Source of the DNA: Niabella drilacis
Lineage (GTDB): Bacteria; Bacteroidota; Bacteroidia; Chitinophagales; Chitinophagaceae
Assembly (NCBI RefSeq): GCF_900101395.1
Contig: NZ_FMZO01000001.1
Location: 186,001-250,000, forward strand
Direction of reading: 5' to 3'
DNA: 64,000 nucleotides
Shown in pieces: positions 4,366-41,836 of this stretch (position 1 is its first letter; the number at the start of each line of letters is the position of its first letter). The position numbers and the translations under genes are program-made. The notes under the pieces are model-generated. The model saw nothing but the letters and a program-made list of their open reading frames with translations, had not been told where the DNA came from and ran no database searches.

Positions 4366-4380
4366 GGATATGGATTTGAT

Positions 4381-4485
4381 GTCTGATGTCTGATGTCTGA
4401 TGTCTGATGTCTGATGTCTGATGTCTGATGTCTGATGTCTGATGTCTGATGTCTGATGTCTGATGTCTGATGTCTGATGTCTGAT
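4381..4485. repeat. Perfect tandem array, 15 copies of a 7-mer
   Basis: Fifteen consecutive copies of GTCTGAT (ATCAGAC read on the minus strand) with no interruption. The array ends 15 nt before the start codon of the minus-strand DUF4197 gene, so it lies in that gene's 5' leader or promoter. A perfect array of this length is prone to slipped-strand change in copy number. One copy changes spacing by 7 nt, which could alter promoter or ribosome access without touching the reading frame. Confidence 0.97.
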
Positions 4486-4680
4486 GAACTTACTAAGGTA
4501 CGAAGAACCTGGTTAGTACCGAACTTTAAACCTCAAACGGCGAATAACCAATCGTCAATGGTCAACAAATCCATGAAGCAGTAAAACTTCTCACTAAGCG
4601 GCTATCCACCTCTCACTCAAACCTCAGACTTCTTCCGGAGGTTCTGAACGCAAAACCAACTTCCTGCTCCCATTCCTGCT

Positions 4681-19629: not shown

Positions 19630-19929
19630 ATGAAACCATCTGAAATATTAATCAAACCGATTTTAACCGAAAAAGCAAATGCCCAGCAGGAAAAACTGCG
19701 CCGGTATGCTTTTAAGGTAGCAAAAAAATCAAACAAGCTGGAAATTAAAAAGGCAATTGAAACTTTTTATGGTGTTACCGTTACCAGCGTAAATACAGTT
19801 GTTGCCCCTGCAAAGAATAAAACCCGCTATACAAAGGCAGGATTTATCCAGGGACGTAAATCCGGTTACAAAAAAGCATATGTAACGGTTGCAGAAGGCG
19901 AGGAGATCGACCTGTACGCAAATATCTAA
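19630..19929 (+). CDS. rplW: 50S ribosomal protein L23
   Basis: Ribosomal protein uL23, 99 residues, at the tunnel exit where signal recognition particle and trigger factor dock. Recognised by KPSEILIKPILTEKANA and the FYGVTVTSVNTVVAPAKNK region. The ATG at 19630 is preferred to the TTG 6 nt upstream. It follows rplD by 29 nt. Confidence 0.98.
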   Translation: MKPSEILIKPILTEKANAQQEKLRRYAFKVAKKSNKLEIKKAIETFYGVTVTSVNTVVAPAKNKTRYTKAGFIQGRKSGYKKAYVTVAEGEEIDLYANI

Positions 19930-20000
19930 TTTCTGAACAGAAGGGCAATCAGCCGCCGCGAAGTGTTGAATCAAAATAAATGTTTCGGTAACGGGAATAA

Positions 20001-20030
20001 ACCTGAAACCTGAAACTTGAAACCTGAAAC
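20001..20030. repeat. Heptad array before rplB
   Basis: Four tandem 7-nt units (ACCTGAA, ACCTGAA, ACTTGAA, ACCTGAA) ending 7 nt before the rplB ATG. The array replaces any Shine-Dalgarno-like sequence. Confidence 0.85.
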
Positions 20031-20037
20031 AAATAAA

Positions 20038-20877
20038 ATGTCAGTAAGAAAGTTTAAGCCGGTAACAGCCGGTACGCGTTGGAGAATCGGGAATTCCTAT
20101 TCCGAGGTGACTACCAACAAGCCTGAAAAAAGCCTGTTAGAATCCAAGAAGAGCACAGCTGGACGGAACTCTTCAGGGCATTTGACCATGCGTTACAGAG
20201 GTGGTGGTCATAAAAAGAAATATCGTATTGTTGATTTTAAGAGAGATAAGCACGATGTGGCAGCTAAAGTAGCAAGCATCGAATACGATCCGAACCGTAC
20301 GGCATTCATCGCGTTGCTGGAATATACTGATGGTGAAAAACGATATATCATCGCTCCCCAGGGGCTGGTTGTAGGTGCTGAGGTGATCAGTGGTAACGCT
20401 GTTGCTCCTGAGATCGGTAATGCGCTGCAGCTGAAAAACATGCCGCTGGGTACCAATGTGCATAATATTGAACTGAATCCGGGTCAGGGTGGAAAGATCT
20501 CCCGCAGTGCCGGTGCATCTGCCCAGCTGACCAACAAGGAAGAGAAATATGCAGTATTGAAAATGCCTTCCGGTGAACTGAGAAAAGTGCTGATCAACTG
20601 TTTTGCTACAGTAGGGGTGGTGAGCAATAGCGACCATAGCCTGCAAAGCATGGGTAAGGCCGGTAGGAACCGTTGGAAAGGTATCCGCCCGAGAAACCGG
20701 GGTGTGGCCATGAACCCTGTAGATCACCCGATGGGTGGTGGTGAAGGCCGTGCTTCCGGAGGTCACCCGCGCAGCCGCACCGGTAAATACGCAAAAGGTG
20801 AAAAAACAAGAACGGTGGGTAAATCAAGTGATAAACTCATCATTCAGCGTAAAAACGGTAGCAAACTGGCTAAATAG
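20038..20877 (+). CDS. rplB: 50S ribosomal protein L2
   Basis: Ribosomal protein uL2, needed for subunit association and peptidyl transferase activity. 279 residues, with [18 protein letters not shown] near the N-terminus and the catalytic-centre loop [20 protein letters not shown] near the C-terminus. The ATG at 20038 ([10 protein letters not shown]) is chosen. The in-frame ATG at 20017 would translate through the heptad array and is unlikely. Confidence 0.98.
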
Positions 20878-20879
20878 TA

Positions 20880-20907
20880 ATCAGAAATCAGTAATTAGAA
20901 ATCAGAA
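20880..20907. repeat. Heptad array before rpsS
   Basis: Four 7-nt units (ATCAGAA, ATCAGTA, ATTAGAA, ATCAGAA) fill most of the 40-nt gap between rplB and rpsS. Confidence 0.85.
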
Positions 20908-20917
20908 ATAAAAAAAT

Positions 20918-21187
20918 ATGGCTCGTTCGATAAAAAAAGGTCCTTATGTAGCAACTCACCTCGAAAAAAAGGTGCTGGCTATTAATGATGGAAAAGGAAA
21001 AAAGGCTGTAATTAAAACCTGGAGCCGCCGCTCTACAATTACACCTGATTTTGTAGGCCACACTTTTGCAGTGCATAACGGAAATAAATTTATTCCGGTA
21101 TATGTTACAGAGTTTATGGTAGGACACAAATTGGGTGAATTTGCACCCACCCGCAACTTTAAGGGACATGCGGGCGACAAGAAGTAA
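20918..21187 (+). CDS. rpsS: 30S ribosomal protein S19
   Basis: Ribosomal protein uS19 of the 30S head, 89 residues. [18 protein letters not shown] and the C-terminal [20 protein letters not shown] are diagnostic. Normal length and operon position between rplB and rplV. Confidence 0.99.
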
Positions 21188-21284
21188 CATTCAATAAAAG
21201 CATTAATATATAAAAGATCGTTTGATTGTTTACCCGGGATGTGCAAGCAGATCAGTTGTAAACTTCAAACCTCAAACTTAAATA

Positions 21285-21761
21285 ATGGAAGCAGTAGCAA
21301 AACTTAGAAATTATCCAACTTCACCTCGTAAAATGAGGTTGTTGGCTGATTTGATTCGCGGCCAAAGAGTGGATCTGGTGTTGGCCGAACTGGAGCACAA
21401 TCCCAAACATCCTGCAGTACCTTTGCGGAAGCTGGTATTGAGTGCCATTGTAAACTGGAAACAGGCCAATGAAGGAGAAGATGAATCCGGCTTAGTGGTG
21501 AAGACCATTTACGTGGATGGTGGCCGTACCTTAAAGCGTATGCGCCCTGCTCCGCAAGGCCGTGGCTACCGGGTTCGCAAGCGTAGCAATCATGTTACCC
21601 TGGTGGTAGATGTAGCTGGTGAAGATAAGAAAGCTGCGAAGAAAGCAAAAGCCGCTGCGAAAGCTGCACCTGCTGAAGTAGCAGAAGCAGCAAGTGTAAA
21701 AGCTCCTGCCAAGAAAAAGGCTGCTGCAAAAAAGTCAACTAAAGAATCTAAAAAAGCATAA
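21285..21761 (+). CDS. rplV: 50S ribosomal protein L22 with Ala/Lys-rich tail
   Basis: Ribosomal protein uL22, whose hairpin lines the exit tunnel. The core (about residues 1-112) carries [19 protein letters not shown] and the tip [20 protein letters not shown]. Residues from about 118 on form an Ala/Lys-rich extension ([20 protein letters not shown] and more), making it 158 residues against about 110-115 for compact homologues. Three 7-nt units precede the start at 21261-21281. Confidence 0.98.
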
Positions 21762-21770
21762 CCAATAAAT

Positions 21771-22529
21771 ATGGGTCAAAAAGCAAATCCAATTGGTAAC
21801 AGGTTAGGCATCATCCGTGGATGGGAATCTAACTGGTATGGAAGCAAAAAAGATTTTGCTTCTAAGTTAATCGAAGACAACAAGATCAGAACATACCTGA
21901 ATGCCCGTATCAACAAGGGAGGTATTTCTAAAATTGTTATCGAAAGAACCTTAGGTAAATTAATCATCACCATTCATACGTCTAAACCCGGGATCATTAT
22001 TGGTAAAGGCGGTGGCGAGGTAGATCGCATCAAGGAAGAATTGAAGAAGCTGACTCAGAATGACGATGTGCAGATCAATATCCTGGAGATCCGTCGCCCC
22101 GAAACAGATGCTATGATCGTTGGCGATACCATCGCACGCCAGATCGAGAACCGGATCAACTTTAAGCGCGCAACCAAGATGGCGATTGCTTCTGCATTGC
22201 GCATGGGCGCCGAAGGGATTAAGGTGAAATTAAGCGGTCGTTTGGGTGGTGCTGAAATTGCCCGTAGCGAAGAATTCAAACAGGGACGTGTGCCATTGCA
22301 TACCTTCCGGATGGATATCGATTATGCCAATGTATTTGCTCAGACCGTTTATGGTAAAATCGGGATCAAAGTTTGGATCTGTAAAGGTGAAGTGCTGGCG
22401 AAGCGTGATCTGAACCCCAACTTTATTTCAGGAAATGATAAGAATGTAGGTGGTGGTGAAAGAAGGGAACATCGCAGGGATGACCGCAGAGGCGATCGCC
22501 GTGGCGGTGGAAGAGACAAAAGGAATTAA
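21771..22529 (+). CDS. rpsC: 30S ribosomal protein S3 with charged tail
   Basis: Ribosomal protein uS3 at the mRNA entry site. 252 residues: an N-terminal domain ([20 protein letters not shown]), a KH domain with [19 protein letters not shown], and a C-terminal domain. The last 30 or so residues form an Arg/Asp/Gly tail ([18 protein letters not shown]), as in other Bacteroidota. It starts 9 nt after rplV. Confidence 0.99.
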
Positions 22530-22541
22530 TAATATATAAAA

Positions 22542-22594
22542 CAGTTTGAAATCTGAGATCCAGTAAATCTCAAATCTCAAATCTCAAATCTCAA
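22542..22594. repeat. Heptad inverted repeat before rplP
   Basis: The right arm (about 22565-22594) holds four copies of a 7-mer (AATCTCA type). The left arm (22544-22559, TTTGAAATCTGAGAT) is its rough complement, so the gap can fold into a hairpin with a short loop. It ends 4 nt before the rplP ATG. Confidence 0.8.
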
Positions 22595-22598
22595 TAGA

Positions 22599-23021
22599 AT
22601 GTTACAACCGAAGAGAACAAAGCACAGGAAAATGCAAAAAGGTCGCATGAAAGGCGACGCGAAAAGAGGTACTACCATTTCGTTTGGTTCTTATGCTTTA
22701 AAGGCCCAGGATTCTCACTGGATTACGGATCGTCAGATCGAGGCTGCCCGCCAGGCGCTTACCCGTAGCATGAAAAGGGAAGGGAACGTATGGATCCGCA
22801 TTTTCCCCGACAAGCCCATCACTAAAAAACCTGCAGAGGTTCGTATGGGTAAAGGTAAAGGTAATCTTGAATATTGGGCAGCTGTTGTACAACCCGGCCG
22901 CATCATTTTTGAGGTAGACGGTGTAAGCGAGGAAGTGGCACGCAGAGCGTTGGAGCTGGCGTCTGGCAAATTGCCGATCAAGACCAAGTTTACCATGCGG
23001 AGGGATTTGGTAACGCACTAA
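22599..23021 (+). CDS. rplP: 50S ribosomal protein L16
   Basis: Ribosomal protein uL16, positioned at the A-site tRNA elbow. 140 residues with [19 protein letters not shown] at the start and [20 protein letters not shown] and LPIKTKF later. Full length; it follows rpsC after a 69-nt repeat-filled gap. Confidence 0.99.
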
Positions 23022-23022
23022 T

Positions 23023-23112
23023 TTGAAAATTTGGAAATGAGCTGATTTGGAAATAATGGCTCATTGAGAATACAATTTTCAAATTTTCAAATTCACAAAT
23101 TTTCAAATTAAG
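23023..23112. repeat. Octad-type inverted repeat before rpmC
   Basis: The left arm (23023-23057) carries TTTGAAAATTTGGAAA-type words. The right arm (about 23073-23111) carries four 8-nt units of AATTTTCA type. The arms are roughly complementary around a 15-nt loop. Same class as the heptad arrays, with period 8. Confidence 0.75.
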
Positions 23113-23117
23113 TAAAG

Positions 23118-23339
23118 ATGTCAAAGAAAAAAGAATTTATCGACAGCGTAAAAGGGTTAGGCACTGAAGATTTAAAGGTGCAGTTGGAGCAGTCCAAGCA
23201 ACGCCTGAAAAAGCTGGAATTCGCACACGCGATCTCTCCGCTCGAGAATCCGATGTCGATCCGTGCGCTACGCAAAGATATCGCCCGCATTGAAACGTTT
23301 TTAAAACAAAATAAAAACAGCGAAGCTGCAAAAGCGTAA
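23118..23339 (+). CDS. rpmC: 50S ribosomal protein L29
   Basis: Ribosomal protein uL29 near the tunnel exit. 73 residues, two long helices, recognised by LKVQLEQSKQRLKKLEFAHA and NPMSIRALRKDIARIETFL. Operon order rplP-rpmC-rpsQ is conserved. Confidence 0.97.
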   Translation: MSKKKEFIDSVKGLGTEDLKVQLEQSKQRLKKLEFAHAISPLENPMSIRALRKDIARIETFLKQNKNSEAAKA

Positions 23340-23372
23340 CAGCAATTTTGTACAAGCCAAAAGGTAAATAAA

Positions 23373-23630
23373 ATGTCTGAAAGAAATTTAAGAAAAACAA
23401 GGATAGGAGTGGTTACCAGCAATAAGATGACGAAGACCATCACCGTTGCTGTGGAAAGAAAAGTAAAGCACCCTATTTACGGGAAGTTCCTGAAGAAAAC
23501 TACCCGGTTTCATGCGCATGACGAGAAGAATGAATGCAGCATTGGTGATACGGTGAAGATCATGGAAACCCGCCCGCTGAGCAAACTGAAGCGTTGGAGA
23601 TTGGTTGAGGTGATTGAAAAAGTAAAATAA
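23373..23630 (+). CDS. rpsQ: 30S ribosomal protein S17
   Basis: Ribosomal protein uS17, an OB-fold protein binding 16S rRNA. 85 residues with [39 protein letters not shown] and [17 protein letters not shown]. Normal length. Confidence 0.99.
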
Positions 23631-23773
23631 GGATTGGGTATTGGACCGATGGCTATCGGGATCCGTATTCAGGATTAGAAAACAGATAATATTTTTTAAA
23701 ATAGATTTTGGGGAATGAGGATCTCAACACTCCCCCGAAGCCTCGGGGCTCAAAATCTCAAATCTTTAATAAG

Positions 23774-24142
23774 ATGATTCAGCAAGAAAGCCGGTTGAAC
23801 GTGGCTGATAATAGCGGTGCAAAAGAGGTACTTTGCATTCGTGTACTGGGCAACAGCGGTCAGCGCTATGCAAAAATTGGCGATAAGATCGTTGTAACGG
23901 TTAAAGACGCTACTCCGGCAGGGGGTATAAAGAAAGGGACCGTAGCTAAAGCGGTGATCGTACGTACAACCAACAAACTGCGTCGTAAAGATGGCTCTTA
24001 CATCCGTTTTGATGATAATGCCGTTGTGATCCTGAACGCAGCTGATGAGCCAAGAGGTACCCGTATTTTCGGGCCGGTAGCCCGGGAACTTCGGGATAAA
24101 GGATACATGAGGATTGTGTCATTAGCTCCCGAGGTGTTATAA
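23774..24142 (+). CDS. rplN: 50S ribosomal protein L14
   Basis: Ribosomal protein uL14 at the subunit interface. 122 residues with [30 protein letters not shown] and [20 protein letters not shown]. The ATG at 23774 matches the family start; an in-frame ATG 66 nt upstream is not needed. The gap upstream has AAATCT-type words and a possible hairpin. Confidence 0.98.
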
Positions 24143-24149
24143 ATGAGCC

Positions 24150-24235
24150 CAATGCCTAATGCAAATGCTGAAGGCATCCATCCATAAAAAATAGCGTTAA
24201 GCCTTGAGCCTTTCGCATTAAGCATAAAGAAAGCA
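24150..24235. repeat. Heptad inverted repeat before rplX
   Basis: The left arm (about 24150-24176) reads in 7-nt steps CAATGCC, TAATGCA, AATGCTG, AAGGCAT. The right arm (about 24194-24235) reads GTTAAGC, CTTGAGC, CTTTCGC, ATTAAGC, ATAAAGA. The arms are roughly complementary to each other. The repeat word differs from those at other gaps. Confidence 0.7.
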
Positions 24236-24242
24236 TAAAAAA

Positions 24243-24602
24243 ATGAGCAAAAGATTTAAACCCAAGTACAATATTAAAAAAGGTGATCTGGTTATTGTTA
24301 TCAGCGGAGCCGCAAAACCCCGCAAAGATGATAATGGTAAGTTTGAATATAAACCCCGGTTGGTGAAAGAAGTCCTTGTAGACGAAGGAAAAGTGCTGGT
24401 GGAAGGGGTAAACATTAAAACCAAACATACCAAACCCTCTGCCCAGAATACAAAGGGCGGTATTGTAAAAGTAGAAGCTCCGATTCATATCAGCAATGTG
24501 ATGTTATGGGATGCAAAGGCTAAAGCACCTTCTAAGGTAAAGCGTGAGCGTGAGGCTGGTAAGACATTGCGCATCTTTAAAAAATCAGGAGAGAAAATCT
24601 AA
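24243..24602 (+). CDS. rplX: 50S ribosomal protein L24
   Basis: Ribosomal protein uL24, an assembly initiator with a KOW motif. 119 residues, with YNIKKGDLVIVISGAAKPRK and EGVNIKTKHTKPSAQNTKGG. Normal length and position between rplN and rplE. Confidence 0.98.
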   Translation: MSKRFKPKYNIKKGDLVIVISGAAKPRKDDNGKFEYKPRLVKEVLVDEGKVLVEGVNIKTKHTKPSAQNTKGGIVKVEAPIHISNVMLWDAKAKAPSKVKREREAGKTLRIFKKSGEKI

Positions 24603-24634
24603 TCTTTTGTGTATCGCAAATAAAGTAATAGACC

Positions 24635-25201
24635 ATGAGTACTAAAACATATATCCCCAGGCTGGCTACAAAATATAAGAATGAAGTAGCCCCGGCATTA
24701 GTGAAGAAGTTTGCTTACAAATCGGTAATGCAGGCTCCTAAACTGGAAAAGATCTGCATCAACCGTGGTGTAAATGGTGCCGTAACTGATAAAAAACTGG
24801 TTGATGTTGCGGTTGATGAGCTGACAACGATCACCGGACAAAAAGCAGTGGTGACCAATTCTAAAAAAGATATCTCCAACTTCAAGTTGCGCAAGAGTAT
24901 GCCGATCGGCGCCCGCGTAACCCTGCGCGGCGAGAAAATGTATGAATTCCTGGATCGCCTGATCGCTGTAGCATTACCCCGTGTACGTGACTTTAAAGGG
25001 ATCAATGAAAAATCCTTTGATGGCCGCGGAAACTATACCATGGGTGTTACAGAGCAGATCATTTTCCCCGAGATCGACATCGATAAGGTGAACAAGATCA
25101 CCGGTATGGACATCACATTTGTGACTACCGCCGACACCGATGAAGAGGCGTACGAACTGTTGAAGGAACTGGGAATGCCTTTCAAAAACGCTAAAAAGTA
25201 A
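24635..25201 (+). CDS. rplE: 50S ribosomal protein L5
   Basis: Ribosomal protein uL5, which binds 5S rRNA and contacts P-site tRNA. 188 residues with [38 protein letters not shown] and [20 protein letters not shown]. Normal length. Confidence 0.99.
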
Positions 25202-25274
25202 TATTATAAAATAACAAATCACAGGTTCCGGGGCATCATCACCCGGGGATCCGGATTTTAGAATTGAATCAAAC

Positions 25275-25544
25275 ATGGCAAAAACTTCAATTAAAGCCCG
25301 TCAGGTAAAAAGAGAAAAAATGGTGGAGCAATACGCCGCTAAAAGAGAAGAGCTTAAAAAAGCCGGCGACTATGCCGCTTTGGATAAACTTCCGAAGAAC
25401 TCTTCCAAAGTGCGTTTGAAAAACCGTTGCCAGTTAACGGGCCGTCCTAAAGGATATGTACGTTATTTTGGTATTTCCAGGGTTGCCCTGCGGGATATGG
25501 CATTGAATGGTAAAATTCCAGGATTGAAAAAAGCGAGCTGGTAA
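25275..25544 (+). CDS. rpsN: 30S ribosomal protein S14 (zinc-independent form)
   Basis: Ribosomal protein uS14, 89 residues, the long form without a zinc ribbon: only one Cys ([19 protein letters not shown]) is present instead of the four of the short zinc-binding form. The C-terminus [20 protein letters not shown] is typical. A GC-rich hairpin (CCGGG/CCCGG, about 25227-25244) lies in the upstream gap. Confidence 0.98.
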
Positions 25545-25630
25545 TTTCAGCTGCACAAAGCCGTAAGACAGGGTATGGGCTTTTAAAATAAACCACCCAC
25601 TAAATTTTGAACTGATATAACTCATATAAA

Positions 25631-26029
25631 ATGGTAACAGATCCAATTGCAGATTTTTTAACAAGAATACGTAATGCTCAAATGGCGGGTCACCGTATTG
25701 TGGATATTCCTGCATCTAACCTGAAAAAACGCATGACGGAGATCTTATACAACCAGGGATATATCCTGAAGTATAAGTTTGAAGAAGATAATAAGCAAGG
25801 CGTAATTAAGATCGCATTGAAATACGATGCTACTACCAAGCAGCCGGCGATTCACAGCCTGGAAAGGGTAAGCCGCCCGGGTTTGCGCCAGTATGCCAAG
25901 CCTGCGGAGATCCGCCGGGTGAAGAACGGACTGGGTATCGCTATCCTGTCTACCTCCAAGGGGGTGATGACCGACAAAGATGCGCGCTCCCAGAATGTGG
26001 GCGGTGAGGTTCTTTGCCACATTTACTAA
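25631..26029 (+). CDS. rpsH: 30S ribosomal protein S8
   Basis: Ribosomal protein uS8 of the 30S platform. In E. coli it represses the spc operon by binding near rplE. 132 residues with DPIADFLTRIRNAQMAGH and the C-terminal LGIAILSTSKGVMTDKDAR and GGEVLCHIY. Normal length. Confidence 0.99.
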   Translation: MVTDPIADFLTRIRNAQMAGHRIVDIPASNLKKRMTEILYNQGYILKYKFEEDNKQGVIKIALKYDATTKQPAIHSLERVSRPGLRQYAKPAEIRRVKNGLGIAILSTSKGVMTDKDARSQNVGGEVLCHIY

Positions 26030-26044
26030 AATGTGCGCATGAGA

Positions 26045-26182
26045 TAATTTGAAAATTTGAAAATGGTTTTCAGGTTATAATCACAAGGGGATGAATGGAA
26101 ATCTTAAGTTTTTTATACGATAACTGAAAGCATTCAGATCTACATTTTCAGAATTATTCAAATTTTCAAATTTTCAAATCAA
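26045..26182. repeat. Inverted A/T-rich octad repeat before rplF
   Basis: The left arm at 26045-26066 (TTTGAAAATTTGAAAA core) and right arm at about 26141-26182 (three CAAATTTT-type units) face each other across about 75 nt. The right arm ends 5 nt before the rplF ATG. Confidence 0.75.
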
Positions 26183-26186
26183 GATT

Positions 26187-26741
26187 ATGTCTCGTATAGG
26201 TAAACAACTGATCGCCATCCCTGAAGGAGTAACAGTTACAGTAAACAATGAGAATGTGGTTACTGTTAAAGGTAAAAAAGGGGAGCTGAAAGAGGCGGTG
26301 AATGCAGATATCAAAGTAGAAGTAAAAGACGGTCAGGTTGCGATCACCCGTCCTTCGGATCAGATCCATCACCGGGCGCTGCATGGCCTGACCCGTGCGC
26401 TGGTAGCGAACCTGGTTGAAGGGGTTACCAACGGCTTTGAAAAGAAAATGGAACTGGTGGGTGTAGGTTATAAAGCCACCAACCAGGGCAACCAGCTGGA
26501 TCTTTCTTTAGGATATTCTCATAACATCATTTTTGATATTCCTAAAGAACTGACCGTTGCTACAGAAACGGTAAAAGGACAAAACCCGACCATCACGATC
26601 AGCGGCAGCGATAAACAACTGGTGGGTGCTGTATGTGCCAAGATCCGCAGCCTTCGCAAGCCCGAGCCTTACAAAGGAAAAGGGGTACGCTTTGTAGGAG
26701 AAATTGTACGTAAGAAAGCAGGTAAGTCTGCAGGTAAATAA
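26187..26741 (+). CDS. rplF: 50S ribosomal protein L6
   Basis: Ribosomal protein uL6, two repeated domains near the sarcin-ricin loop. 184 residues with MSRIGKQLIAIPEGV, VVTVKGKKGEL, GVGYKA and the C-terminal signature PEPYKGKGVRFVGE. Normal length. Confidence 0.99.
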   Translation: MSRIGKQLIAIPEGVTVTVNNENVVTVKGKKGELKEAVNADIKVEVKDGQVAITRPSDQIHHRALHGLTRALVANLVEGVTNGFEKKMELVGVGYKATNQGNQLDLSLGYSHNIIFDIPKELTVATETVKGQNPTITISGSDKQLVGAVCAKIRSLRKPEPYKGKGVRFVGEIVRKKAGKSAGK

Positions 26742-26746
26742 ATAGT

Positions 26747-26809
26747 GTTTAAGGTTTGAGGTTTAAAGTTGAACACTAAACTTCAAACCTTAAACCTTGA
26801 ACTTGAAAC
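26747..26809. repeat. Heptad inverted repeat before rplR
   Basis: The clearest case. The left arm reads GTTTAAG, GTTTGAG, GTTTAAA, GTTGAAC. After a few bases the right arm reads in 7-nt steps with AAACTTC, AAACCTT, AAACCTT, GAACTTG. Left and right are near complements, giving a possible stem of about 28 nt. A second small hairpin (CCCTG/CAGGG) lies between this and the rplR ATG. Confidence 0.88.
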
Positions 26810-26850
26810 ATAAAAATCCCTGGCAGCATCAGGGAAACAAATAAAAGACA

Positions 26851-27207
26851 ATGTCAAACGTAAAAGTTAAAAGAAGAACCAGCATCCGCCGCTCTATTCG
26901 TCAGAAAATCAGCGGTACTTCAGAAAAACCGAGACTGGCAGTATTTCGTAGCAATACGGATATTTATGCCCAGTTGATCGACGATAACAAGGGAGTAACC
27001 ATTGCTGCGGCCTCTACGAAAGACAAGGATATCAAGGCGCAGCCGGGTACCAAATCTGAAAAAGGCAAGCTGGTTGGCGCGGCCATCGCCCGTAAAGCAG
27101 CAGACCTGAATGTAAAAGCGGTAGTTTTTGACAGAGGCGGCTACCTGTACCACGGGCGTGTTAAGGCTGTGGCTGAAGGTGCAAGAGAAGGTGGTTTGCA
27201 ATTTTAA
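26851..27207 (+). CDS. rplR: 50S ribosomal protein L18
   Basis: Ribosomal protein uL18, a 5S rRNA binder. 118 residues with [38 protein letters not shown] and the C-terminal [20 protein letters not shown]. Normal length. Confidence 0.99.
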
Positions 27208-27233
27208 AAAGTTATTCAATCTAAAACGAAATA

Positions 27234-27752
27234 ATGTCAACAGTTAATTTCAACAATGTTAAGGCGGGCGATCTTGAATTAAAAGACAAGGTGGTAGCTA
27301 TTAATCGTGTAGTAAAAACAACCAAGGGCGGTCGTGCATTCAGCTTTTCTGCATTGGTTGTTGTAGGGGATGGTAACGGAGTTGTAGGACATGGCCTGGG
27401 AAAGGCAAAAGAAGTTCAGGAAGCAATCACAAAAGGAATAGAGGATGCCAAGAAAAACCTCATTAAGGTTCCGATCATGAAAGGTACTATTCCTCACGAT
27501 CAGTGGGCGAAAGAAGGTGCTGCAAAGGTAATGGTGAAACCCGCATCTGCCGGTACCGGTGTAATTGCCGGAGGCTCTATGCGTGCCGTATTGGAAGCAG
27601 CAGGTCTTACGGATGTGCTGGCAAAGAACCTGGGTTCTGCTAACCCGCATAACGTGGTAAAAGCTACCTTTAAAGCATTGGCAATGATGCGTGAGCCGGT
27701 ACATGTTGCAAAAACCCGCTCATTAGGCTTAAAGAAAGTATTTAACGGATAA
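27234..27752 (+). CDS. rpsE: 30S ribosomal protein S5
   Basis: Ribosomal protein uS5, part of the mRNA entry channel and important for decoding accuracy. 172 residues with the S5 signature [20 protein letters not shown] and [14 protein letters not shown], then the C-terminal domain ([20 protein letters not shown]). Normal length; it follows rplR by 26 nt. Confidence 0.99.
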
Positions 27753-27757
27753 GAAAA

Positions 27758-27828
27758 GTTTAAGGTTTGATGTTTAAAGGGCAATGTGCTGAGCAGACTT
27801 TAAATGTTGAACTTTAAACCTTAAACAT
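27758..27828. repeat. Heptad inverted repeat before rpmD
   Basis: The left arm (27758-27778) reads GTTTAAG, GTTTGAT, GTTTAAA. The right arm (about 27798-27828) carries complementary ACTTTAAA / CCTTAAAC words. The loop is about 18 nt. The array ends 6 nt before the rpmD ATG. Confidence 0.82.
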
Positions 27829-27834
27829 ATTGAT

Positions 27835-28014
27835 ATGAAAAAGATAAAAGTTACGTTAGTAAAAAGCCCGATCGACCGCCCGGAACGGCAAAAGCTTACA
27901 TTAAAAGCATTGGGATTGAATAAAACCAACAGTAGCAAGGAAGTAGAAGCTACTCCACAGATCCTGGGTATGATCCGCAAAGTGGAGCATATGTTAAAAG
28001 TTGAAGAATTGTAA
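27835..28014 (+). CDS. rpmD: 50S ribosomal protein L30
   Basis: Ribosomal protein uL30, 59 residues (MKKIKVTLVKSPIDRPERQK, then LGLNKTNSSKEV and QILGMIRKVEHMLKVEEL). The small size is normal for bacterial L30. It sits between rpsE and rplO as expected. Confidence 0.97.
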   Translation: MKKIKVTLVKSPIDRPERQKLTLKALGLNKTNSSKEVEATPQILGMIRKVEHMLKVEEL

Positions 28015-28030
28015 ATCCGGATCCGTGCGC

Positions 28031-28060
28031 TATATTTGCACGTCTTCCTGCCTGGCAGGA
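28031..28060 (+). promoter_or_regulatory. Internal promoter with hairpin before rplO
   Basis: TATATTTG (28031-28038) matches the -7 consensus. It is followed at 28046-28060 by a compact palindrome (TCCTGCC-t-GGCAGGA) and a second possible stem nearer rplO. The layout parallels those before rpsJ, secY and map. Confidence 0.5.
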
Positions 28061-28114
28061 TATCATTTAACAAGCGAGCTCCCGCTTTTGGAGCGTAAGT
28101 AAAAAAGTAAAGCA

Positions 28115-28564
28115 ATGAAATTACATGAATTAAGGCCTGCAAAAGGTGCAGTACACAAAGAAAAAAGAATTGGTCGTGGTGAAGGAAGCGGTTTCGGCGG
28201 AACCTCCACAAAAGGTAATAAAGGGGGGCAGAGCCGTGCCGGTTACAAGCGGAAAATAGGACATGAAGGCGGCCAGATGCCGATCCAGCGCCGTACACCT
28301 AAAAGAGGCTTTAAGAACCCGGACAAAATTGTTTATAAGATCATTAACATTGGCCAGGTAGATCAGTGGGCTGAAACACATAACATTTCTGATTTTTCTG
28401 CTGAGAATCTTTACAACATGGGCTTTATTGGTAAGACCGACAAAGTAAAGGTTTTGGGTAACGGGGAAATTAAAGGCAAATTTGCATTTAAGGTTCACGC
28501 CATCAGCGAAAAAGCGAAAGCTGCCATCGAAGCTGCCGGTGGATCTGTTGAGATATTGAACTAA
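28115..28564 (+). CDS. rplO: 50S ribosomal protein L15
   Basis: Ribosomal protein uL15, 149 residues. The Gly-rich N-terminus (GRGEGSGFGGTSTKGNKGGQ, then RAGYKRKIGHEGGQMPIQRR) and the C-terminal KFAFKVHAISEKAKAAIEAA mark the family. Normal length. Confidence 0.99.
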   Translation: MKLHELRPAKGAVHKEKRIGRGEGSGFGGTSTKGNKGGQSRAGYKRKIGHEGGQMPIQRRTPKRGFKNPDKIVYKIINIGQVDQWAETHNISDFSAENLYNMGFIGKTDKVKVLGNGEIKGKFAFKVHAISEKAKAAIEAAGGSVEILN

Positions 28565-28575
28565 TTTCTCAAAAA

Positions 28576-28604
28576 TAGATTTGGACGCACGTAGTGCGTC
28601 TTTT
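28576..28604 (+). promoter_or_regulatory. -7 box followed by terminator-like hairpin before secY
   Basis: TAGATTTG (28576-28583) fits the -7 box. Directly after it comes a perfect 7-bp stem GACGCAC-gta-GTGCGTC and TTTT. A transcript starting here would begin with a terminator-like hairpin. It could equally be the terminator of the rplO-side transcript. Confidence 0.55.
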
Positions 28605-28638
28605 AATTTTGGAGAATTGACAATTTAAGAAGAATCAG

Positions 28639-29979
28639 GTGAAAAAACTAATTACTACACTTAAGAATATATGGAGCATCGAAGAGCTAAGGAGTAAAAT
28701 TCTTTTCACTTTATTGCTGATCTTTATTTACCGGATCGGAAAGTATATTCCGCTTCCCGGCATTAACCCGGTTACCCTGGAAGCGCTGCAGAAAAATAAT
28801 GCGCAGAACGGGATCCTGGATCTGATCAATACTTTTGCAGGAGGCGCCTTTGAGCAGGCCTCTATTTTTGCGCTGGGGGTTATGCCTTATATCACGGCAT
28901 CCATCTTCATGCAGCTGATGACCGTATTGGTGCCCTCCTTCCAGAAAATGCAGAAAGAGGGTGAAAGCGGACGTAAGAAGATTAACCAGATCACACGGTA
29001 CCTGACTGTTGTGGTAACTTTTGTACAGGCCTTCGCTTACCTGGCGTATTTGCAGCAAACCTCCGGACCTGCTATCATGGCCGGATATGGAAGCTTTTAT
29101 TTTTCCCTGACCACCGTTATCCTGTTGACCACCGGTACACTGTTTGTAATGTGGCTGGGTGAAAAGATCACTGATAAAGGGCTGGGCAACGGGGTATCCC
29201 TGATCATCATGGTGGGGATCCTTGGCCGTCTTCCGCAGTCGCTGGCTCAGGAACTTACGTTCCGTTCAACCAGGACCGGGGATATCCTGATCTTTATTAT
29301 TGAGATTGCTCTTTTTGTAGCGATCATCCTGGGATCCATTATGCTGGTTCAGGGGGTAAGAAAAGTTCCGGTGAACTACGCCAAGCAGATCGTGGGCAAC
29401 CGGCAGTTTGGCGGAGCACGGCAGTTCCTGCCCCTTAAGGTGAATGCCGCCGGGGTAATGCCGATCATCTTTGCGCAGGCAATTATGTTTGTACCCACCC
29501 TGTTTACGATGGGAAGTAAGAACGCTGACCTGGGGAGGATGTTTACGGATCATACCAATGGCTGGTATATGCTGATTTATGCAGTGGTTGTGATCGGGTT
29601 TACGTTCCTTTACACGGCGCTGATCTTTAATCCCAAGCAGATCTCGGATAACCTCAAGCAGAACAATGGTTTTGTACCAGGTGTTAAACCGGGGCAGCCT
29701 ACAACAGATTATATCGGTACCATTATGGACCGGATCACTTTTCCAGGTGCGGTATTGCTGGCTTTTGTAGGGATCTTACCTGGTTTGATCCAGAAGCTTT
29801 TCGGCATGACCATGGGCTTCTCCATGTTCTTTGGCGGAACCTCGCTGCTGATTATGGTAGGGGTGGTACTGGATACATTACAGCAGATTGAGACCCAGCT
29901 GATGATGCGCCAGTACGACGGTTTGATGAAAAGCGGCCGTATCCAGGGACGCCAGAGTTCTTCAGCCATCCAGATTTAA
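28639..29979 (+). CDS. secY: Preprotein translocase subunit SecY
   Basis: The pore subunit of the Sec translocon, 446 residues with about ten membrane helices. Family marks include YRIGKYIPLPGINP near the N-terminus, FALGVMPYITASIFMQLM, and the C-terminal TFPGAVLLAFVGILPG region. It starts with GTG at 28639, which places the usual KKLITTLKNIWSIEELR start at the N-terminus. It follows rplO as in the spc operon. Confidence 0.98.
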   Translation: MKKLITTLKNIWSIEELRSKILFTLLLIFIYRIGKYIPLPGINPVTLEALQKNNAQNGILDLINTFAGGAFEQASIFALGVMPYITASIFMQLMTVLVPSFQKMQKEGESGRKKINQITRYLTVVVTFVQAFAYLAYLQQTSGPAIMAGYGSFYFSLTTVILLTTGTLFVMWLGEKITDKGLGNGVSLIIMVGILGRLPQSLAQELTFRSTRTGDILIFIIEIALFVAIILGSIMLVQGVRKVPVNYAKQIVGNRQFGGARQFLPLKVNAAGVMPIIFAQAIMFVPTLFTMGSKNADLGRMFTDHTNGWYMLIYAVVVIGFTFLYTALIFNPKQISDNLKQNNGFVPGVKPGQPTTDYIGTIMDRITFPGAVLLAFVGILPGLIQKLFGMTMGFSMFFGGTSLLIMVGVVLDTLQQIETQLMMRQYDGLMKSGRIQGRQSSSAIQI

Positions 29980-40943: not shown

Positions 40944-40969
40944 GCGTTTTAAGACCATATAGTATTTGA

Positions 40970-40999
40970 CAGCTCCGGAAAGTTCCGGGGCTGTTTTGT
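40970..40999 (+). terminator. Terminator after rpoD
   Basis: Stem CAGCTCCGGAA (40970-40980) with TTCCGGGGCTG (40983-40993), one G-T pair, followed by TTTTGTTTT. Confidence 0.85.
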
Positions 41000-41016
41000 T
41001 TTAATACCTGTATGGA

Positions 41017-41118
41017 ATGTTGAGGATTTTTTTAATAGATCCCAACGGGATCATTATTGCAAAGAACCTGAGCGGGGAAGCCCTGCAGGACCGCCTGTCT
41101 GCGATCCTGGGGAAGTAA
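41017..41118 (+). pseudogene. C-terminal fragment of thioredoxin-fold (AhpC/TSA or TlpA-like) protein
   Basis: A 33-codon frame just after the rpoD terminator encodes MLRIFLIDPNGIIIAKNLSG followed by EALQDRLSAILGK. This closely resembles the last strand and helix of TlpA/ResA-type thiol-disulfide oxidoreductases (the FLIDPxGxIxAKxLxGexL pattern). The rest of the domain and the CxxC site are absent upstream. It is most likely a deletion remnant. Confidence 0.6.
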
Positions 41119-41294
41119 CCCCGGATAGGTTCCTGGTTTGGGGTTTGATGTCAGGTCCTGTGTACATGCTTGATGTTGAATTTCTACTCTGGATAGTCAT
41201 CGCATGTGCGTCAAGATAAAAAGCAGGTCTATTGCAATAAAATGTAGTATGAATAAGCCTTTGGAAGCTAAAAAGACCTGATCTTTTCATAGCA

Positions 41295-41618
41295 GGCGCA
41301 GCGCGCCGCAAATAATGGTAACAAGAACTTCCAGGGACATGCCCGTAGCCGCAGCGCGGCGGGAATCGTTTCGGAGGAGACTTAGAGCCTGTTTAAAATT
41401 CATTCAATGGCTTTATTATGGCTGTTTTGGGCTGCAACTGCGTTAAATTTTTCGCCATAGTGGCCTACTATGCCTGCAAAATTTTCCTTGTTTCGCTCCA
41501 AAATAGCTTCATAATAAATTCCATCAATAAAATTTAAACAGGCTCTTATAGTACCGGTGCGCTGCACCTCTGTTCCGTCTCCTGTTCGGTGCTAATAAGC
41601 GCAACGCTGCGCTGCAGC
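41295..41618. repeat. REP-like cluster of four 5-bp hairpins around a palindrome
   Basis: Four 13-nt hairpins with trinucleotide loops: GGCGC-agc-GCGCC (41295-41307), GCCGC-agc-GCGGC (41348-41360), GGTGC-gct-GCACC (41556-41568) and GCTGC-gct-GCAGC (41606-41618). The two left ones have loop AGC and the two right ones loop GCT, so the set is arranged as mirror images about the 163-bp palindrome. AGGAGAC/GTCTCCT words accompany both sides. This is the architecture of REP/BIME-type elements. Confidence 0.75.
41384..41546. repeat. 163-bp imperfect palindrome (MITE-like)
   Basis: Begins AGAGCCTGTTTAAA and ends with its complement (TTTAAACAGGCTCT type). Each half of about 81 nt is roughly the reverse complement of the other, with scattered mismatches. 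No transposase is encoded. A non-autonomous palindromic mobile element or a long RNA hairpin are both possible. Confidence 0.85.
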
Positions 41619-41741
41619 TTTGGCCTTTAACCACTATTCCTAAAATTAACCTGACGCGCATGCGATAGCTATCGGGATCCACTTTTCAAATTTTCAAATT
41701 GCCCCAGGTTTCACGTTCGATTTCACTTCGTACCTATAAAT

Positions 41742-41804
41742 CTATTAACTATGAACTATTGACCGTCGCCCATGAACCATTGACTTCCATTTTCACATTT
41801 CCAC
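41742..41804. repeat. Heptad array upstream of SDR/RmlD-like gene
   Basis: Nine successive 7-nt steps (CTATTAA, CTATGAA, CTATTGA, CCGTCGC, CCATGAA, CCATTGA, CTTCCAT, TTTCACA, TTTCCAC) ending about 32 nt before the ATG at 41837. Same class as in the ribosomal operon. Confidence 0.75.
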
Positions 41805-41836
41805 ATTTTTAAATTTTATCTCGTTATTATTGTATT

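Follow-up and report, generated by a model that had tools for sequence, protein, structure and literature searches.

The S10/spc operon of Niabella drilacis and its tandem arrays

We analysed a stretch of 64,000 nt of Niabella drilacis DNA (Chitinophagaceae; contig NZ_FMZO01000001.1, positions 186,001 to 250,000 of the forward strand), here called the window, which carries an S10/spc operon of ribosomal-protein (RP) genes whose intergenic gaps contain short tandem arrays with a period of 7 or 8 nt. An earlier model-made reading of the letters, referred to as the original prediction, had described such arrays and had proposed that their left and right arms pair. The genes of the operon carry names given by the original prediction or assigned from their position; tblastn searches with the window translations revealed the same gene order in relatives. 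The features are as follows (all coordinates refer to the window; fold z is the z-score of folding against shuffled sequences).

20038-27834, + strand: open reading frames of rplB (start at 20038), rpsS, rplV, rpsC, rplP, rpmC, rpsQ, rplN, rplX, rplE, rpsN, rpsH, rplF, rplR and rpsE, and the rpmD leader
19999-20030, + strand: rplW-rplB gap, one array of 4.6 copies of AAACCTG ending 7 nt 5' of the rplB ATG, no clear left arm (Tandem Repeats Finder; score 21, fold z -1.3)
20879-20909, + strand: rplB-rpsS gap, one array of 4.4 copies of AATCAGA without a hairpin (Tandem Repeats Finder; score 18, fold z 0.4)
21220-21270, + strand: rpsS-rplV gap, weak hairpin GTTTGATTGTTTAC / GTAAACTTCAAAC (score 10; fold z -1.6 and -2.2 in two runs)
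22544-22594, + strand: rpsC-rplP gap, hairpin at 22544-22582 and array of 4.3 copies of AAATCTC at 22565-22594 (Tandem Repeats Finder; fold z -2.2, 5 of 200 shuffles as stable)
23022-23109, + strand: rplP-rpmC gap, arms of period 8, AATTTGAA on the left and AATTTTCA on the right, helix at 23022-23107 (fold z -3.8)
24152-24225, + strand: rplN-rplX gap, degenerate heptad hairpin AATGCCTAATGC.. / ..GCATTAAGCAT (score 14; fold z -3.2, 1 of 200 shuffles as stable)
26047-26179, + strand: rpsH-rplF gap, period-8 arms at both gap ends, with an inner motif between them that is kept in relatives (fold z -1.6, -1.7)
26747-26802, + strand: rplF-rplR gap, strongest hairpin, left arm GTTTAAGGTTTGAGG.., right arm ..CCTTAAACCTTGAAC, 23 pairs (fold z -7.0, 0 of 200 shuffles as stable)
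27758-27819, + strand: rpsE-rpmD gap, hairpin starting 5 nt past the stop codon and ending 15 nt 5' of the rpmD ATG (fold z -4.0, 0 of 200 shuffles as stable)

The lag-7 enrichment over shuffled controls on which the original prediction had staked itself is pronounced. Over the 18 gaps of the rplW-secY interval, self-match at lag 7 was 0.400 compared with 0.282 in 500 dinucleotide shuffles (z 9.4). Lags 8 (z 5.8) and 14 (z 3.7) were also enriched and lag 6 slightly so (z 2.4), while lags 9-13 were at or below chance in the same gaps. With 7-nt tandem units above chance, the arrays of the window belong to the heptanucleotide class of simple sequence repeats.

Taken as an observation, the original prediction was confirmed in part. 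Tandem Repeats Finder recovered the period-7 arrays expected before rplB, rpsS, rplP and rplR (the latter at 26747-26770 and 26777-26802), and also the period-8 arrays expected before rpmC (23020-23038 and 23074-23109) and rplF (26046-26064 and 26144-26179). The arrays before rplV, rplX and rpmD are too degenerate for this program and were recognised with a laxer score (10, 14 and 10, respectively); for the one proposed before rplN the score was only 7 and the fold z about -1. Paired arms had been proposed for at least six gaps; five gaps, those before rplP, rpmC, rplX, rplR and rpmD, gave a fold z < -2 against 200 shuffles, and those before rplV and rplF were weaker. The separate word proposed for each locus holds only in part: AAATTTTC is common to the rpmC and rplF gaps and AAACCTT to the rplR and rpmD gaps. 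The proposed distance of 4-40 nt between hairpin end and ATG does not hold at rplR, where it is 48 nt.

Two intrinsic terminators were predicted on the + strand of 19900-28700 (28583-28601 and 28046-28060), both outside the arrays, and the reading of the arrays as terminators was rejected. A search of window positions 15000-36000 against Rfam 15 returned nine matches with E up to 5, none of which, ribosomal-protein leaders included, reached its gathering score. The longest heptad array of the window is a perfect one of 15.7 copies of TGATGTC at 4377-4486.

Distribution of heptad arrays in the genome

To describe the arrays genome-wide we used a sample of 1.264 Mb of the 6.1 Mb genome with 739 N-free intergenic stretches, delimited by our own gene caller, so that some gap ends are uncertain and short genes, infA and rpmJ for instance, may have escaped it. 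At a score of at least 11, 59 period-7 segments were found compared with 1.1 after shuffling. They number 43 in 502 co-directional, 11 in 112 convergent and 5 in 125 divergent gaps, with shuffled values of 0.6, 0.2 and 0.3, respectively. As 54 of the 59 segments lie outside S10/spc, heptads are not confined to this operon. Periods 14 and 21 were next in excess; period 8 was weaker (10, 2 and 1 segments in co-directional, convergent and divergent gaps), and convergent gaps showed small excesses at periods 10 and 20 (4 segments each), divergent gaps at 5, 11 and 20 (4, 3 and 3). About 1.0 Mb of coding sequence contained 8 period-7 segments. An unsupervised 7-state hidden Markov model of intergenic DNA picked up GC-rich patches instead of heptads and was discarded.

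Within this genome-wide background the arrays are concentrated in RP operons. For counts by gap, a score of at least 9 at period 7 or 8 was applied. Arrays were present in 9 of the 14 usable S10/spc gaps compared with 36 of the 279 remaining co-directional gaps of 40-250 nt (Fisher 2.5e-5), among which a few RP gaps may remain owing to the gene caller. Other RP operons were chosen by anchor gene through Pfam searches before their gaps were viewed, and their genes were named from the protein starts. Here, 8 of 13 gaps of at least 40 nt had arrays (Fisher 1.1e-4 against the same 36/279), namely rpsM-rpsK, rpsK-rpsD, rpsD-rpoA, rpoA-rplQ, L13-S9, S9-S2, S2-tsf and S12-S7, that of rpoA-rplQ being marginal (score 9, T-rich); in five of these eight the fold z was < -2. 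No arrays were found in the L11-L1, L1-L10, L10-L12, S18-L9 and L35-L20 gaps of the window genome. The strongest heptad hairpin of the sample outside these operons lies in the gap between L33 and a small protein, presumably DUF4295, and the next gap, before ftsY, has an array as well. Both gaps of this L33 operon were located through their arrays and are excluded from the 8/13.

Folding of the gaps and co-variation of their halves

For comparison we used the best 80 of 573 matches as relatives, many of them metagenome bins and nearly all titled Chitinophagaceae, Bacteroidetes or a genus thereof, and a Niabella set of 17 genomes including that of the window (G000), whose S3 protein shares 99% identity with its Niabella aurantiaca counterpart. 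G002, with gaps equal to those of N. aurantiaca L004, was dropped from the Niabella counts of structure, co-variation, grammar and helix position, and L004, L005 and L006, already in the Niabella set, from the counts of relatives. All counts over relatives or related species refer to non-independent samples. Gaps of 40-250 nt were folded, and those of 55-250 nt were used for the pairing of left and right halves.

A fold z < -2 was obtained for 98 of 167 S10/spc gaps in Niabella and 439 of 821 in relatives; in the window genome such values were reached by 55 of 281 other co-directional gaps (two of them in the L33 operon), by 27 of 66 gaps between convergent genes and by 5 of 74 between divergent ones. 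Among S10/spc gaps with heptads the fractions were 70/109 in Niabella and 176/249 in relatives. In the window genome, array-bearing gaps were structured in 6 of 9 cases in S10/spc and in 5 of 36 outside RP operons (Fisher 0.003). Structure in RP gaps is nevertheless wider than heptads, since about half of the RP gaps on average were structured in the heptad-free genomes (8/77) and 17 of 49 gaps of 40-250 nt in outgroup Bacteroidia.

The position of the arrays recurs in relatives: of 206 arrays in S10/spc gaps, the distance from the preceding stop codon is below 10 nt in 97, and that to the following start codon in 110. The largest domain of structured S10/spc heptad gaps begins at a median of 5 nt past the stop and ends at a median of 16 nt before the start (n=246).

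Co-variation was assessed with RNAduplex, by which each left half was set against its own right half as well as against orthologous, same-genome other-gap and shuffled right halves. In 343 heptad gaps the own right half outperformed 79% of orthologous, 78% of same-genome and 80% of shuffled halves, and 28% ranked in the orthologous best 5%. The corresponding values were 67%, 68%, 70% and 21% for all 809 gaps, and 57%, 59%, 60% and 14% for the 374 gaps with a score <7. Among well-sampled gaps rpsE-rpmD (n=44) was strongest, with 88% and with 45% in the best 5%. Co-directional gaps of the window genome that do not belong to S10/spc, tested against right halves drawn at random from their set, reached 56% with 14% in the best 5% (n=242), and their heptad subset 64% with 17% (n=36). 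In the Niabella group the halves of the quickly changing arrays tend to change together, leaving them able to pair, which suggests that shape may matter more than letters. The claim that period and position are conserved while sequence is not holds in the relatives, both for array positions near stop and start codons and for co-variation between the halves.

Turnover and phylogenetic range

At rpsC-rplP, G000, G001 and G009 have a short form with AAATCTC, and N. aurantiaca, G012, G010 and G007 a long one with CACATT. At rplF-rplR, the form with GTTT occurs in G000, N. aurantiaca and G001, and that with AATTTGAA in G012, G010, G009, G003 and G007. All four combinations were found in Niabella; a single tree can therefore explain both gaps only if exchange or recurrent gain is allowed. 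The rplP-rpmC gap measures 14 nt in N. aurantiaca, G001, G012, G009 and G003, and G007 carries one 127-nt element with a common loop in both rpsC-rplP and rplP-rpmC (86% identical). Loss in close relatives had been named as a refutation of the original prediction: single arrays are indeed often lost or replaced, but the class persists. Stretches of at least 60 nt were shared by 26 of 6,917 non-orthologous RP gap pairs within genomes (rate 0.0038) and by 269 pairs between genomes (0.00042), i.e. about nine times more commonly within a genome; these counts still hold the duplicate genomes L004/G002 and L006/G008.

The words are related in having a loose T-N-A-A core in common. In phase-aligned words of 59 co-directional arrays this core gave z 11.6 against column-permuted words, and z 9.3 when the reference was a set of intergenic 7-mers matched exactly in base counts (58% of words with TNAA compared with 30%). 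An interpretation of T-N-A as a stop codon was unsupported, the middle base in co-directional arrays being mostly C or T.

The median S10/spc gap is 59 nt in the window genome and its relatives and 87 nt in Niabella. In an outgroup of 20 loci from the same class, one of which (L206) represents the same family and 19 represent others, the medians were 2.5-37.5 nt and the lag-7 z was only 2.1; the same gaps of E. coli span -1 to 33 nt, except for 164 nt at rpsQ-rplN. The shorter outgroup gaps and the small lag-7 signal indicate that the arrays belong to a gap inflation in the Niabella group and its relatives.

Relation to known heptamer repeats

The papers cited by PMC number in this and the next section are represented by excerpts, to which our statements about them refer. 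An excess of heptanucleotides among long bacterial simple repeats, with slippage as the proposed cause, was reported by Mrazek et al. 2007 (per PMC4679880 and PMC4692102). Period 7 is favoured there as here; these excerpts describe neither pairing nor an operon bias. Closest to our arrays are the TAACTGA repeats known from marine Beggiatoaceae, from cyanobacteria and from a few Bacteroidetes (MacGregor 2015, PMC4679880), which are likewise intergenic heptamer arrays, often a few nt from a start codon and in some cases in RP operons. They consist of one fixed word in direct orientation (one indirect set in the main genome), and according to the excerpts no particular RNA structure is predicted for them, whereas the arrays of the window and its relatives have many words and paired, co-varying arms. 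The position within several nt of a start codon is shared by 110 of 206 arrays of the relatives. The TAACTGA unit, in any rotation and on either strand, was not encountered in the window operon; its rotation AACTGAT is one canonical word in the 1.26 Mb sample, accounting for 2 of 92 N-free arrays. Other heptamer repeats occur beside TAACTGA in Gramella, A. sublithincola and Elizabethkingia (PMC4679880).

Degenerate heptads in both arms of a hairpin, with copy numbers varying by strain, are known from the P6b stem of the cyanobacterial tRNA-Leu intron (PMC3488679), a single intron site as opposed to gaps across an operon. The GGGAATC repeats of Xanthomonas and GGGGA(T/C)T repeats of Nostoc (PMC4692102) are also intergenic heptads which vary extensively in length and sequence among close relatives, including one inverted example; unlike the window arrays they are G-rich and quadruplex-forming, with one word type per group in that study. 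Heptamer repeats in bacteria are already known, although there is no agreement on their role, and what differs here are paired, co-varying arrays centred on RP operons. No description of paired heptad arms in RP operons of Chitinophagaceae was found in the open-licence literature, which leaves most subscription papers uncovered.

Possible origin and function of the arrays

Selection on structure and a local copying process, offered by the original prediction as alternatives, look like two layers of one phenomenon, with arrays genome-wide and pairing typical of RP operons; its interpretation is supported in part, the roles that it suggested (ribosome loading, an RNase site or a modular RNA-binding protein) being hypothetical. 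We propose that slippage is the source of the arrays and that paired arrays are retained in RP operons, a reading to which we assign a probability of roughly 50%. Tandem heptads, and some octads, in the intergenic DNA of this genome and of many Chitinophagaceae would be generated and kept uniform by 7-nt slippage together with copying between sites. In RP operons the arrays that are kept are, as a statistical pattern, those which pair across the gap; a filter may act there by which an array is mostly kept if a left arm past the stop codon pairs with a right arm before the start codon. Paired halves change jointly, likewise as a statistical pattern, the word itself being free to vary. The folded array could serve as a splint that hides much of the inflated gap, with a median of 16 nt left free ahead of the ATG, so that the splinted gap would act like a short one, translational coupling would be maintained and the mRNA perhaps guarded. 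The coupling of S7 translation to S12 across the intercistronic region in E. coli (PMC10931766) is a precedent for such coupling, a subject reviewed in PMC12548453.

More tentatively, and with some doubt on our part, these might be 'word-free' intercistronic splint hairpins in which selection sees nothing but end-to-end pairing while slippage and copying rewrite the letters so rapidly that sister species end up with unrelated words at one and the same gap. Such a class, if real, would amount to a regulatory or architectural RNA element without conserved sequence, undetectable by homology search. If pairing is selected, this shows how inflated gaps are tolerated within an operon, and that conserved sequence is not needed to maintain an RNA structure. 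Dozens of related genomes, in which the word was repeatedly swapped at one place with pairing largely kept, make mutation versus function directly testable.

Several results weigh against retention of paired arrays as splints. Only one arm is present in the rplB and rpsS gaps and at S9-S2 and S12-S7. In heptad RP gaps of at least 100 nt the helix ends at a median of 32 nt before the start (n=133), and the number of unpaired nt outside the domains of the minimum free energy fold was not below that of shuffled gaps but rather higher, so that path shortening is unsupported by this measure. Co-variation was nil at rplO-secY (0.46), rplW-rplB (0.51) and rpsN-rpsH (0.53), and within alleles, as judged by alignment and RNAalifold, it was weak (at rpsE-rpmD 11 double changes in 7 pairs but 21 broken cells), the latter test having few informative pairs because repeats align badly. 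A comparison of sense and antisense folding energies was uninformative and had to be abandoned, since divergent gaps shift in the same way. Moreover, outgroup Bacteroidia and E. coli manage with shorter gaps and without arrays, and the atp and nuo operons, with arrays in 2 of 10 gaps, did not differ significantly from the 8/13 of RP gaps (p 0.09).

The last point also bears on the main rival, a purely mutational origin: a copying process in highly transcribed DNA, in which slippage and strand-switch copying yield direct heptads as well as inverted arms, at a rate raised by transcription of RP operons and without any benefit. The presence of arrays in every gap class, the replacement of whole arms between close species and the ninefold preference for sharing long similar stretches among non-orthologous RP gaps of the same genome are all consistent with it, and heptamer excess and the idea of polymerase slippage have been published before (PMC4679880, PMC4692102). 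We nevertheless regard it as somewhat unlikely: outside RP operons just 5 of 36 arrays lie in structured gaps, and RP gaps are structured in heptad-free lineages too. If the arrays were instead binding sites of a multimeric RNA- or DNA-binding protein reading one unit per 7 nt and regulating RP synthesis, their adjacency to start codons and a word grammar beyond base composition, as given by the TNAA core, would be explained, and S1, Csp or Csr family proteins were proposed for TAACTGA arrays (MacGregor 2015, PMC4679880). A sequence reader is expected to fix its words, so that the differences at most positions between neighbouring gaps and sister species make this role improbable. We consider it equally improbable that the hairpins are small non-autonomous mobile elements inserted between genes: the 127-nt element in two gaps of G007 and the 14-nt rplP-rpmC gap in five relatives would agree with insertion, but most positions of the arms vary, inspection by eye revealed no shared end sequence, and the genome's terminal-repeat elements have a very different appearance.

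Other conserved and repeated elements

Apart from the arrays, several gaps contain conserved motifs. The rpmD-rplO gap carries at 28074-28100 a hairpin of the form GCGAG-stem-CG(n)AAGT, conserved in 58 of 77 gaps of Niabella and relatives, with varying stems (GGG/CCC, CTCC/GGAG, CCTC/GAGG); it is a candidate ribosomal-protein leader without an Rfam match. In G014 and G011 an additional repeat sequence lies between both halves of its stem. A second candidate leader, before rplR, is a conserved hairpin at 26817-26835 of the rplF-rplR gap with a GGCAGNATC core between changing stems (58/80 gaps). Two motif forms occur in the rpsH-rplF gap (26030-26186), both counted with strict patterns: ATACATTAAG..CTGA(N)CGGTT with an outer stem in 12 of 79 gaps, and AAGTT..TATACG..AACTGA, often flanked by heptad arms, in 10 of 79. 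A conserved GGCAATCA(A/G)CCGCCGCGAAGTGTTG precedes rplB at 19944-19969 of the rplW-rplB gap (25/87 gaps, strict pattern). Elsewhere in the window, at 40944-41836, we observed a terminal-repeat element of about 168 nt, AGAGCCTGTTTAAA..TTTAAACAGGCTCT, with five near-identical copies in the 1.26 Mb sample, which contains at least three further terminal-repeat families.

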